A stretch of 64,000 nt of DNA from NCBI GenBank assembly GCA_024223715.1, contig JAAEOA010000427.1, forward strand, positions 53,617-117,616, read 5' to 3'. Position numbers and translations under genes: made by a program. The notes beneath the pieces are model-generated. The model worked only from the letters and a program-made list of their open reading frames with translations, was not told the origin of the DNA and made no database searches. Position 1 is the first letter of the stretch; each line of letters starts with the position of its first letter. This DNA comes from a bacterium. Lineage in GTDB: Bacteria; Krumholzibacteriota; Krumholzibacteriia; LZORAL124-64-63. Positions 23,304-28,617 of this stretch are shown in pieces.

Positions 23304-24509
23304 TCACTTTGATGTGCCCCGGTACATAGCCTTAACCCCTCCAAACGACAGGTGCTCGGTGGCTACCGGCTGGCCAATGAAAGGGATAAAGTCCACATCG
23401 TAATCACAAAGGTGAATCCAGGAGGCAATAGTATCGGCGTCTGTGGTTCCCCAGTCGTTATAAGTCATGTTCAGAATGGGGAGATCTCTGGCTGAGGATT
23501 CAGGGCAATAGTAATTCTGCCTCACTGTATAATCTCCATGGGCAAGGATACAATTTGTGACTTGCAAGGATTCCAGGTGAGCAATGTCCACAGAGGACCT
23601 TGTCACATCCTGGATTACCGAATTTATAACTCTGACATTGCTACCGGGCCCATAGATGCGAATGGCTCGATCTTGATGAAGGAAAAAACAGTCTTCGATG
23701 TTGCAGTTACTATTTTGCGCTCGAAAACCCACTCCAGACCTGTTGGTATTAAAATGATTTTCAAAGGTGCATCCTGTAATTTGGGCAAATATCCCTTCAT
23801 ACCCAGATGCAACAGTTAACCCACCTGCCCCACCCTCAAAATTACAGTTACTGACCTCGACATCCCGGTTTGATTCAAGGTGAACTCCCATATCCGGGTA
23901 CTGGTGTTCGCCCTCAAACAAAAAGTTGCAATCAGAAATCCTAACCTGATCAAAACCCTTCACCCCAAATGAAATGGAACCTTCGGCTGAATTATTGAAA
24001 ATGCTATTTGTCAGTTCAAAATTGTCCCCATAATAGCAACTGAAGCTTGATGCATTGGAATCAAACCTGCAATTCTCTATCTCCACCTGATCTGGAGAGG
24101 GGAGTGCATTTATTGCATAACGCATATTTTCAAATCCAATGTTTTCAATGCGAATTTTGCTGGTGCATCCAAAATCTGGATTTGCAACTATTCCCCAAAG
24201 ATTCCCTAGAGAATAGTCATAGGGTTCTGTTGGACCCAAGATGGTCTCCTCAGGTCCAGCGCCAATCAATGTTAGTTCTGATTGGGCCACCAAAACCCGA
24301 ACAAAGGCCGTCCAACCAGGAGTGGTTACAATTTCACCTTCGTTATAGCGGCCTGGGCCGATAAGAATGATATCACCTGAGGCTGCGGCATCTACTGCAT
24401 CCTGAATCGTTAGAAAATCCCCACTGCCATCTCGTTCTACACGCAATGTTGCACCAGAAACAGGCAGCGCCAAGACCAAAGAAAAAAGTCCGATTATCGC
24501 TATTTTCAT
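23304..24509 (-). CDS. Exported right-handed beta-helix (pectate-lyase-like) protein
   Basis: MKIAIIGLFSLVLALPVSGATLRVERDGSGDFLTIQDAVDAAASGDIILIGPGRYNEG; parallel beta-helix repeats; C-terminus LSFGGVKAMYRGTSK. Confidence 0.85.
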   Translation of the reverse strand: MKIAIIGLFSLVLALPVSGATLRVERDGSGDFLTIQDAVDAAASGDIILIGPGRYNEGEIVTTPGWTAFVRVLVAQSELTLIGAGPEETILGPTEPYDYSLGNLWGIVANPDFGCTSKIRIENIGFENMRYAINALPSPDQVEIENCRFDSNASSFSCYYGDNFELTNSIFNNSAEGSISFGVKGFDQVRISDCNFLFEGEHQYPDMGVHLESNRDVEVSNCNFEGGAGGLTVASGYEGIFAQITGCTFENHFNTNRSGVGFRAQNSNCNIEDCFFLHQDRAIRIYGPGSNVRVINSVIQDVTRSSVDIAHLESLQVTNCILAHGDYTVRQNYYCPESSARDLPILNMTYNDWGTTDADTIASWIHLCDYDVDFIPFIGQPVATEHLSFGGVKAMYRGTSK

Positions 24510-24580
24510 GATGTTCTCCAATTCAGAATGCGTGCCGATTTCCATATTTTGAAAGGTTTTCCGAAATTTTAAGATTAGGT

Positions 24581-25489
24581 TCATTTCAGCATAATCAATT
24601 GCTTCTTTAGAACCACCAGCCCAGCTTCCAGCCGAGCAAAATACACCCCACTGGCCGCCTGAGATCCGCTACTATTTCGCCCATCCCAGGTCACCTGGTG
24701 TTGCCCCTCCTCCAGATGCTGAACCAAAAGTTCGCAGACCAATCGGCCGCGCAAATCGAAAACGCACAGACTTACATGGCCCGAACTTGGGACCACAAAT
24801 TTTAACTCTGTTTGAGGATTGAAAGGATTTGGGTAAGCGACAAGTGAAGCAACAGCAGAATGTGGTATTGGTCGCTCATCATCGACAAGATCCACCTGAC
24901 TGTTATCAGCCAGCCTTAAAACCAATACATCTCCTGCGGCTTTGTTTGTGTCCAGGATAGGTTCCACAGCCATCTGTGAACTTGCGGCCATGGGATTCCA
25001 GTCTTCATTGTTTCCCGTCAACCAGCAGCTGCGCACTCCACTGCCTTCTTGAAAGCCGAGGCCAAAACCGCCATTGGCCCCGTTATGAAGAAAACCAGAA
25101 CCTTCCGGTAGTCTAAAAAAGAGATATAGACCCGCACTGTCAGCAGTAATTGGCTGTGGGAACACCACTTCGCTCCAACTGGATGTTGTTCCAGATACAT
25201 TCTGAACAAGAGAAACGGCATCTGATATATGGCCAGGCCACTCCAGCAGCCCGGCTTGGGCAAGAATTTCAGGATACTCGGTATTTCCATCGTTTTGAAA
25301 CCAGCGAACTCCTGAAACAACAGCACCTTCTTCTATGGGCACCCAGACCGCAAGACAAGTCTGGGCGTTTATATTGTCTAAGCCAAAAACGCCTTCTATC
25401 TCAGGCAATTCAGTTGCTTGGGCCATACTGCATGAAACAAGAAGGACCAAAAGGGCAACTCTAAAATTTTGAATGACTTTCATTTGCAT
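24581..25489 (-). CDS. Exported protein with C-terminal FlgD/T9SS-like sorting domain
   Basis: Signal peptide FRVALLVLLVSCSMAQA; C-terminus LVAYPNPFNPQTELKFVVPSSGHVSLCVFDLRGRLVCELLVQHLEEGQHQVTWDGRNSSGSQAASGVYFARLEAG. Confidence 0.82.
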   Translation of the reverse strand: MQMKVIQNFRVALLVLLVSCSMAQATELPEIEGVFGLDNINAQTCLAVWVPIEEGAVVSGVRWFQNDGNTEYPEILAQAGLLEWPGHISDAVSLVQNVSGTTSSWSEVVFPQPITADSAGLYLFFRLPEGSGFLHNGANGGFGLGFQEGSGVRSCWLTGNNEDWNPMAASSQMAVEPILDTNKAAGDVLVLRLADNSQVDLVDDERPIPHSAVASLVAYPNPFNPQTELKFVVPSSGHVSLCVFDLRGRLVCELLVQHLEEGQHQVTWDGRNSSGSQAASGVYFARLEAGLVVLKKQLIMLK

Positions 25490-25500
25490 ACCTCCATTAC

Positions 25501-28227
25501 TTATTCAACTTCGGGACAATTCAAGACATACAGGGTTTTGTTCCAAGTGAAATGCTGGTTTAGAACTCGGCTGTGAATTATGTACGGCACAGTCAGTATC
25601 TGGTCACAAATGCGGTTTTCCCACTTGAAGAAATGTTTGTATTTATCTCCAATTTTTTCAACCGTGTAGACCACATCCGGGCTGGAGGAACTCAGGGAAT
25701 AAACCGTGGTTACCCCGTCGGCAACCCCATTGGGAAACTCAACCTCATCCAATGAAATATCGCTCGGATGAGGTGTGTCCCATTCAAAAACCCAAGTCAC
25801 TAAAGTATCGCCCGGGGCCCACTCCATGTAGGATTTCACCGATTTTCTGATAATGGTAGGTTGGCCTATTGTCAGGGTGTTGTACTGGCCTGGTAAAACC
25901 CTTTCGTATTGGGTCTGTCCACAAGGCCAAATGACTTCAACATCAACCGTATCGGCATATGCACCCAAGCCGAATGAAAGATCCAAATCGTTTTGCCCCG
26001 CATTACCGCTGCCTCCGTCGACCACCCTTGCCTGGACATTTCCAGCCCATTCAACAATTACTGTGGCCCCAATTCCGTAGGTGTTACAGGAAAGATTTTC
26101 TGACCGAAGACGGATCCCTACCCAGTTGTTGGGATTGCCTCCAGGGAAGGCACCCTCATTTTTGAAGAAGAAGGGAGCATCGCCCTCAGATGCGATCATC
26201 AATTCTGAGAAACCGTCCAGGTTCCAATCTGCTGCACACAAACCATGAGCCTCGAATGTATCCCCATTCAACTGCCGAGTGCCAAACGCAGCACCTCCGG
26301 ATGTATTTTCCAAAATTCGACTTCTCCATTCATATAAAGCCGAATTTGAAATTCCGAAATCCAACCAACCATCCAGATTGTAATCAAAAATATCAAGGTC
26401 TGTTGGAGCAATTTGGTCTTCTGGAGCTTCAGACCAGCCCAAGGATAAACTTGCGGTCCCTGTTTCAACAAAATGATTGGTGAATATGCCTCTTCTGCCT
26501 GCTACGCCTCTTGCATGAAAAACAATGTCAATATCTCCATCATTGTCAAAATCTCCCGGCCCGGCAAAAGCCCCGCCATGCCAGAGATCATCCCTGTTAG
26601 CAAAAAGCAAAACTGATTGGTCAGAAAAAGTGCCCCCATCATTTCTGAAGTACCTGGAGGCTGGATGCGGCCTAGTATTTGGGTGAGCATCTCCAAATTG
26701 AAGATAGTCAAAAAGAATCAAATCCATATCATGGTCCTGATCCAGGTCAACCCAAAACAAGGAACGAAAATCCATTTGATTGTAAGTCTCTCCAGTAGGG
26801 GTAGGAAAACCGATGGAATCAGTAACATTTACAAAAACTCTATTTTCCAGGTCGTTGCCCTGTACTTGTTGATTGTGGTAAATAGTGAGACCCTTGGCGC
26901 CAATATCAGAATCGAAAGTGGAAGAGTTTGGTGAGCCCGCAACAGCAAGGTCAAGATAACCGTCCCCATCAAAATCTCCCCATGCCCCATTTAGAGTCTG
27001 TTCATTGTTTACGTTGGAACCAAACACTTCGGTGGATGCATCTGAAAAAGTTCCATTGCCATTATTTCGATACAGTCGATGACCTTCACTATAATAGGAG
27101 CCCTCATCCCATTTTGCATTTGGGGCGTAGAAATCCAGATCACCATCGTTATCATAGTCAGCGACAAGGATTCCGACTGTTCCTTTAGGTGGGGAAATCA
27201 CGGTGCTTCCATTGTCGAAAGTAAAGTCAGTTACATCAAAAAACTCAGTAATTCCATCCGAAGTAAAACTATCCGACCTAAAAGCCATCCCATTATTTTC
27301 CGAGCTAACCGATTGAAACCCACTTACGACCATGTCTTTGTTTGTATCTCCAATGAAATTGAAGGCTGCCGCATTGGATCGTTTCGGCATGTGAAGGGCC
27401 AGAGCATCATCAATCAATGTATCCTCCGAATAGTCATAATACGCACTCCCAGGCAACTCTGGTGCCCCCACTCCCTGCAATACGGAAAAATACTCCAAAG
27501 CTGCAAAAATACGTGCCCCCTGCTTAAAAGAAAACTCCTCCCAGCAACTCATTGGCGAGTTGGACATAATATTCCCGGGATCAGGAGAATGAGCAGGATA
27601 TTGACTGACAAAACTGCTTGAAAGGGTGCAATCTCCGAGGACAAAACCAACCAATCCAGGATCAGCGGGAGTATCGTCAACTAGATCTCCAGTAGCTCCG
27701 GCGTTGCTGCCATCAGGATTCTCAACCCCAAATTCCGTTTCATCAGTTTCATACAACCCCAAGCAATTCCCCAAAAGACGACTGAGGGCTGAGCGAGAAG
27801 ACAGGCTTCCAGTCAAGACCATTGATGAGCTTGGAACCCCCGCCGCGCGTCCTTTGGCTGAGCCGGATGAAGGTCCGAGATAAATATCAATGGCATCTGT
27901 ATGAGGATTTTCAGAAAATAGATCCCCGGCATAAAAATCCGGATTGTTATAAAAAAGAGAATTTGGCAAATCTTGCTGACCAATTAGTGAAAGCATAACA
28001 CCCAGAGGTTCAAAATCTGAAGATGCGACAGCAAACAAGGAATCTACCTCGACAGAACTGAGCCCGCCGGAGCCATCGGTTTCCCGTAAAACATGGATAT
28101 AACATCGAATGGCAATGCTGCTGAGGCTGGTGATATAGTCGGGAGATTTGTTTTCTACTACAAGTGAATCAGGATACGAAACAGGTGTGTTGCAATCAAG
28201 ATACTGGGCTCCAACTACCCCCCCCAT
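25501..28227 (-). CDS. FG-GAP/VCBS and ASPIC/UnbV repeat protein with N-terminal pappalysin-like (M43) pseudo-protease domain; true start probably 28286 via frameshift
   Basis: DYDNDGDLDFYAPN, DFDGDGYLDLAVAG, DLDQDHDMDLILFD repeats; C-terminal IGATVIVEWAGNVQARVVDGGSGNAGQNDLDLSFGLGAYADTVDVEVIWPCGQTQ; N-terminal LGNCLGLYETDE...ATGDLVDDTPADPGL...NIMSNSPMSCWEEFSFKQGARI resembles the M43 zinc region. Confidence 0.85.
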   Translation of the reverse strand: MGGVVGAQYLDCNTPVSYPDSLVVENKSPDYITSLSSIAIRCYIHVLRETDGSGGLSSVEVDSLFAVASSDFEPLGVMLSLIGQQDLPNSLFYNNPDFYAGDLFSENPHTDAIDIYLGPSSGSAKGRAAGVPSSSMVLTGSLSSRSALSRLLGNCLGLYETDETEFGVENPDGSNAGATGDLVDDTPADPGLVGFVLGDCTLSSSFVSQYPAHSPDPGNIMSNSPMSCWEEFSFKQGARIFAALEYFSVLQGVGAPELPGSAYYDYSEDTLIDDALALHMPKRSNAAAFNFIGDTNKDMVVSGFQSVSSENNGMAFRSDSFTSDGITEFFDVTDFTFDNGSTVISPPKGTVGILVADYDNDGDLDFYAPNAKWDEGSYYSEGHRLYRNNGNGTFSDASTEVFGSNVNNEQTLNGAWGDFDGDGYLDLAVAGSPNSSTFDSDIGAKGLTIYHNQQVQGNDLENRVFVNVTDSIGFPTPTGETYNQMDFRSLFWVDLDQDHDMDLILFDYLQFGDAHPNTRPHPASRYFRNDGGTFSDQSVLLFANRDDLWHGGAFAGPGDFDNDGDIDIVFHARGVAGRRGIFTNHFVETGTASLSLGWSEAPEDQIAPTDLDIFDYNLDGWLDFGISNSALYEWRSRILENTSGGAAFGTRQLNGDTFEAHGLCAADWNLDGFSELMIASEGDAPFFFKNEGAFPGGNPNNWVGIRLRSENLSCNTYGIGATVIVEWAGNVQARVVDGGSGNAGQNDLDLSFGLGAYADTVDVEVIWPCGQTQYERVLPGQYNTLTIGQPTIIRKSVKSYMEWAPGDTLVTWVFEWDTPHPSDISLDEVEFPNGVADGVTTVYSLSSSSPDVVYTVEKIGDKYKHFFKWENRICDQILTVPYIIHSRVLNQHFTWNKTLYVLNCPEVE

Positions 28228-28617
28228 AATGAAAACCCAATTGCAATTACAACAAAAATCAACTGTGCGTAACGGTTCGAGTTCATTTTTTCCCCCTCAG
28301 GAATCTCATAGATTATGAAATGACCATCCAACAATTGCATGTCTTGAAATGTACTGTCTGTCTTGAAATATACTCCCCTTGTTCCTAGTTTACCTTGCCT
28401 GTTTTTTTTCTGTCAAGGAAAAATGCCGAATAACTCCGTCAAGTTGGTGCCCAAGCATTTCAGGCTCAACCCAATAGATTAGAAACCAATAATACTTCAC
28501 AAATTTGCCTTTCTTCGAATTCCTTAAAAGAATGAAGCCAAAAACTATCAATTTTGTATTATGTTCTTTGCTTCCATCTACTATCAATTATCGTATCACC
28601 CATCCCAAGGAGCAGCC

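Follow-up and report, generated by a model that had tools for sequence, protein, structure and literature searches.

A one-base frame break at a G8 tract between a signal peptide and a probable exported pseudoprotease–FG-GAP protein

A tract of eight guanines separates a signal peptide from the protein that follows it by a single reading frame. The two open reading frames (ORFs) are very likely one gene broken at the tract, because the closest full-length homologue, and with it a second one, carry both parts in the same frame. The break itself is almost certainly a one-base change in tract length, since the tract is the sole G/C run of at least 7 in the window, i.e., in the whole 64-kb stretch of DNA analyzed here. 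As to its origin, we favor an incidental change, given that no other G8 or G9 run of the genome visibly breaks a gene and that the tract is absent from both relatives. Phase variation is a reasonable hypothesis, but it is not established, and the genome context lends it no support.

The Locus and Its Relatives

The locus is on the minus strand, and all positions are those of the window. A ribosome-binding-site-like GAGGGGG (28298–28292), read directly and compared with other start contexts, stands 5 nt (AAAAA) 5′ of an ATG at 28286. This ATG opens an ORF of 23 residues (MNSNRYAQLIFVVIAIGFSLWGG; 28215–28286), whose stop codon TAG (28217–28215) comes directly after the G8 tract (28218–28225, C8 on the plus strand). 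All these elements had been described in a sequence-only reading of the same DNA and are confirmed. The 908-aa ORF (25501–28227), which would encode the mature secreted protein, is in a frame one base apart from that of the upstream ORF, with the junction at the tract. Its ATG at 28227 overlaps the tract, the G of the codon being tract base 1. The sequence-only reading had found no ribosome-binding site for this start, and indeed no Shine-Dalgarno (SD)-like motif is present 5′ of it. The frame of the 908-aa ORF stays open for 23 codons 5′ of 28227 (to 28296), but these include no ATG, GTG, or TTG. Downstream of the break there is no stop across 908 codons.

When the two parts are joined, the product begins MNSNRYAQ-LIFVVIAIGFSLWGGVV-GA, with putative cleavage before the next residue, Q. 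A positively charged n-region, a hydrophobic core, and small residues at −3 and −1 precede the mature domain, as in a Sec signal peptide heading an exported protein, and the mature N-terminus is predicted to be QYLDCNTPVSYPDSLVVENK. The hydrophobicity of the upstream peptide is matched by only 12 of the 1293 ATG-opened 23-codon peptides of the window (top 1%), and its assignment as a signal peptide also draws on its in-frame equivalents in the relatives.

Homologues were searched in 58 related genomes. The closest full-length one (L002, on G024:C8) comes from the same family and has 45% identity; its signal peptide and mature part are in one frame (MHRDRRYGFFFLAFCILITTWASTGRA-QYFTCNT). Counted from the Met, the conserved QY is preceded by 27 residues in L002 and by just as many in the window if the two ORFs are joined (MNSNRYAQLIFVVIAIGFSLWGGVVGA-QYLDCNT). 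The second homologue, L004, is likewise in frame (MLTRLVLVTVFTLSLTSIQALAAT-QYLTNNTPV), with 24 residues before QY. Hence, the claim that the G8 tract separates a signal peptide from its own protein by one frame is borne out by the in-frame signal peptide of L002 and its matching length. Relatives starting at the counterpart of 28227 without a signal peptide, which the sequence-only reading had named as evidence against its view, are not what is found, as L002 and L004 both have in-frame signal peptides. The G tract is absent from the junction in both. The gene was found in none of five congeners, and a scan of genome contigs gave only distant FG-GAP homologues. In L004 (G014:C249, minus strand, 481 aa), the N-terminal part runs directly into the C-terminal part, and the region of the M43 motif is missing along with most FG-GAP repeats, either by internal deletion or by assembly collapse (the contig is short).

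A 302-aa gene with a signal-peptide-like start and a C-terminus resembling the T9SS type A sorting domain or FlgD_ig (24581–25489) lies 11 bp 3′ of the 908-aa ORF. It is intact in the window, and it is adjacent to the homologue in L002 too. The 908 stop-free codons and this intact, syntenic neighbor suggest that the break is either recent or spurious. The 302-aa gene is the first of two exported-type genes 3′ of the 908-aa ORF (23304–25489, minus strand); the second, which overlaps it by 4 bp, codes for a 426-aa right-handed β-helix (NosD-like) protein.

The Encoded Protein

The product of the whole gene is best explained as an exported protein of ~928 residues, comprising a signal peptide, an inactive M43-like domain, FG-GAP repeats, and a UnbV_ASPIC domain. 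The C-terminal two thirds match FG-GAP_3 (85.5 bits, cut-off 26.9) and UnbV_ASPIC (49 bits, cut-off 23.4), both above the curated Pfam cut-offs, and in this part the protein resembles the CRTAC1-type FG-GAP/UnbV_ASPIC proteins. Among plasmid records, only CRTAC1-family matches are found, and these are confined to the C-terminal part. The N-terminal domain (27469–28212; ~250 residues) gives no match when searched alone against Pfam, M43 included. The profile of its family, which includes homologues with an intact motif, matches pappalysin-2 (E = 8.7e-13) and ulilysin (E = 6e-6) in the PDB. An AlphaFold model of the domain, of moderate confidence (pLDDT 68.6), has PAPP-A as its top Foldseek match (E = 2.2e-6, TMq 0.62). 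Alignment, profile, and predicted structure thus all point to a metzincin domain with an M43/pappalysin-like fold.

The resemblance to the M43 (pappalysin/ulilysin) metalloproteases concerns the family profile and the fold, but not the active site. In place of the HExxHxxGxxH motif, the domain in the window (27469–28212, minus strand) has RLLGNCLGLYE and that of L002 (L002:1498–2244) has HLLGHCLGLYD, so that the window protein has none of the zinc-binding histidines of the motif, nor its catalytic glutamate. The HExxH of active enzymes is kept in L003, L008, L010, L011, L017, and L088, and the whole HExxHxxGxxH motif is intact in L003, L008, and L010. The first five, those scanned against Pfam, all match Peptidase_M43 (two of them just under the curated cut-off). 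The active site of the window protein has apparently been inactivated, and the gene probably codes for an exported pseudoprotease–FG-GAP protein. More distant homologues retain the motif, and it seems that catalysis was lost in steps within the FG-GAP-fused branch.

G Tracts in the Assembly and Chance Expectation

A genome-wide pattern search of the 4.62-Mb assembly gives 30 G8/G9 runs (21 G8 and nine G9), including the one studied here, and no G run longer than 9. By an ORF-based count, 21 of the other 29 are in ORFs and 8 are non-coding; on closer look, two or three of these ORF assignments (L039, L045, L056) probably do not hold and the runs concerned are non-coding as well, which leaves ~18–20 in ORFs read through intact. 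No gene break is visible at any of the 29, as judged from ORF layout and not from homology, and none of them falls within a recognizable signal peptide. Because the other runs visibly break no gene, never exceed 9, and are absent from recognizable signal peptides, nothing in the genome points to a repertoire of tract-based switches. A search across the genome for a family of G tracts at gene starts was likewise negative, the near-start candidates being explained otherwise: the tract of L032 encodes a motif, LGGGRGTR, of a GlgC-like protein, that of L039 is upstream of a more plausible start, that of L045 adjoins a start codon, that of L056 abuts a tRNA-like sequence, and that of L076 is behind a lipoprotein signal. 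At L053 (G000:C281, ~1501), a G8 in the 5′ untranslated region directly precedes the ribosome-binding site for a protein with a signal peptide (MRVFLIVVLCLFSAGFAIGQN...), and this is a possible site for effects of tract length on expression.

In the family set, 34 of 38 genomes have a G run of at least 10 (some at contig ends), whereas this assembly (G000) has none, and a technical limit on homopolymer length was considered for this reason. A runs in the assembly reach 15–18, which leads to rejection of such a limit for A/T only, not for G.

At this base composition, G or C runs of length 8 should occur 0.5–0.9 times per 64 kb (both strands), and the presence of one somewhere in the window is unremarkable. 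With 30 runs in 4.62 Mb, chance alone would put one within the 70 bp that could hold a break in the frame of the gene with a probability of ~5e-4. GGG represents 15.5% of the glycine codons in the genes of the window; two consecutive GGG codons have a probability of ~0.02 on this usage and of ~0.08 on that of the gene itself (26 GGG among 93 Gly codons). The improbability of the paired codons weakly supports a retained tract.

Origin of the Frame Break

The break probably reflects an incidental one-base change in the tract, by assembly error or by real mutation, and not an evolved switch. One gene would encode the exported protein, with the G tract specifying the end of the signal peptide, and slippage would have altered the tract by one base, the alternatives being a base-calling or consensus error and a random mutation that arose recently in the cells sampled. 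Should the base count be real, translation from 28286 would end after 23 codons, and there would be at most reinitiation at ATG 28227, giving a cytoplasmic product without export signal; those cells would not secrete the protein. Consensus error is perhaps the form that this change took, although we hold this tentatively. In metagenome contigs assembled from Illumina reads, homopolymer errors affect 0.32–1.02% of genes (PMC3277595), a short-read rate that may not be the one of this assembly's platform; it would correspond to tens of genes in a genome of this size, which makes such an error plausible. In a large survey, homology-supported singleton frame breaks were mostly sequencing errors and not genuine indels (PMC3711429). 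The present case has in common with metagenome homopolymer frameshift errors (PMC3277595) the one-base difference in a homopolymer, the otherwise intact gene, and the single assembly, but here the other G8–9 runs and the long A/T runs are read through intact. Intact reading of the G8–9 runs in genes and of the A runs of 15–18 suggests that the assembly handles homopolymers well, and consensus error is therefore not the default. A real but non-adaptive slippage mutation, the other form of incidental change, is a doubtful candidate when taken by itself. What speaks against an incidental change in either form is the placement of the G tract, since a phase-variable switch would be expected at just such a site, near the 5′ end of the gene and within the signal peptide of an exported protein.

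Under phase variation, slippage between tract lengths would reversibly join and separate the signal peptide and the mature protein, turning export ON and OFF, and the assembly would represent an OFF majority. We regard this as rather unlikely, even though several observations go in its direction. The tract occupies codons 21–23, within the signal peptide, where one-base changes would switch the frame of an otherwise intact gene; its coincidence with the break is far beyond chance (P ~5e-4), and two GGG codons in a row are infrequent. High-frequency switching by homopolymers near gene starts is known elsewhere (PMC2831843), and Bifidobacterium breve provides a documented case, with a G tract in its first pilus gene (PMC9187656). 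On the other hand, G8 is under the threshold of at least 9 used for G/C tracts in a survey of the Neisseria phasome (PMC5953494), which the presumed joined state would just reach, and it is shorter than the tracts of B. breve (G9–G12). In this genome no run reaches 10 and the other recognizable signal peptides lack a tract of this kind, and the tract is not conserved in the nearest homologues, L002 and L004. No report of phase variation by homopolymers in metagenome-assembled genomes came up in a literature search.

Several known systems can be compared. The sortase-pilus switch of B. breve is similar in having a G tract in the first gene of a surface structure, two ORFs split by frame, and a deposited genome that is out of frame; its tracts of G9–G12 have measured length variants, and G tracts are a repeated feature of the pilus clusters of the genus (PMC9187656), whereas here a G8 is known from one consensus sequence and the relatives lack it. 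In inlA of Listeria monocytogenes, too, a one-base change in a short 5′ homopolymer (6–7 bases) cuts off an exported protein shortly after its start, so that short tracts can be hypermutable; that tract is however a poly(A) with measured reversion (PMC2831843), and ours is a poly(G) considered from sequence alone. The Neisseria loci share with ours the poly-G and the frame-dependent expression of surface or exported products, with 15–19 tracts above the threshold of at least 9 per genome in switching species (PMC5953494); here the tract is a G8, and the nine G9 runs of the genome come without gene break. An undescribed switch in an uncultured environmental lineage, toggling the secretion and not the synthesis of an inactive-protease/FG-GAP surface protein, is improbable in our view. 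In such a switch, cells in the out-of-frame state could still make a product that stays in the cytoplasm, with translation reinitiating at the ATG that overlaps the tract. The deposited tract length of B. breve differed from the majority length (PMC9187656), and this precedent, the rates of PMC3277595, and the judgment of PMC3711429 warn against trusting a single consensus.

Two further explanations take the present sequence as functional. By recoding, a −1 shift of the ribosome on the G run, or slippage of RNA polymerase, would produce some signal-peptide-bearing product. Once slipped by −1, both tRNAs can pair again on the G run that precedes UAG, which would give exactly WGG-VVGAQ, and the stop is directly 3′ of the run. 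Yet the 95 nt that follow have less structure than shuffled sequences (z = +1.81; an equal or better fold in 197 of 200 shuffles), the sequence 5′ of the run has no evident SD-like stimulator, and L002 and L004 encode the junction in one frame without the run, so that the recoding site is not conserved. Thus, of the usual marks of programmed −1 frameshifting, the slippery run is present, and both the downstream structure and the conservation among homologues are lacking. Recoding is very improbable. The other explanation is that of separate genes, in which the 908-aa ORF would natively start at ATG 28227, or be coupled to a leader peptide, and remain in the cytoplasm, the upstream peptide being a leader on its own. 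The overlap of this ATG with the end of the upstream ORF has a geometry that permits reinitiation, but there is no SD motif 5′ of it, the domain types and the syntenic neighbor with its T9SS tail are typical of exported proteins, and signal peptide and mature part share one frame in L002 and L004. The comparison with these relatives largely refutes separate genes, to which we give hardly any credence.

G-tract switching of exported proteins is so far best known in host-associated bacteria. If tract length varies among cells, such switching would be extended to an uncultured lineage and to a tract below the length threshold of surveys. Even if there is no switch, the automated call of a 908-aa protein leaves out the signal peptide and would lead to a false cytoplasmic assignment.
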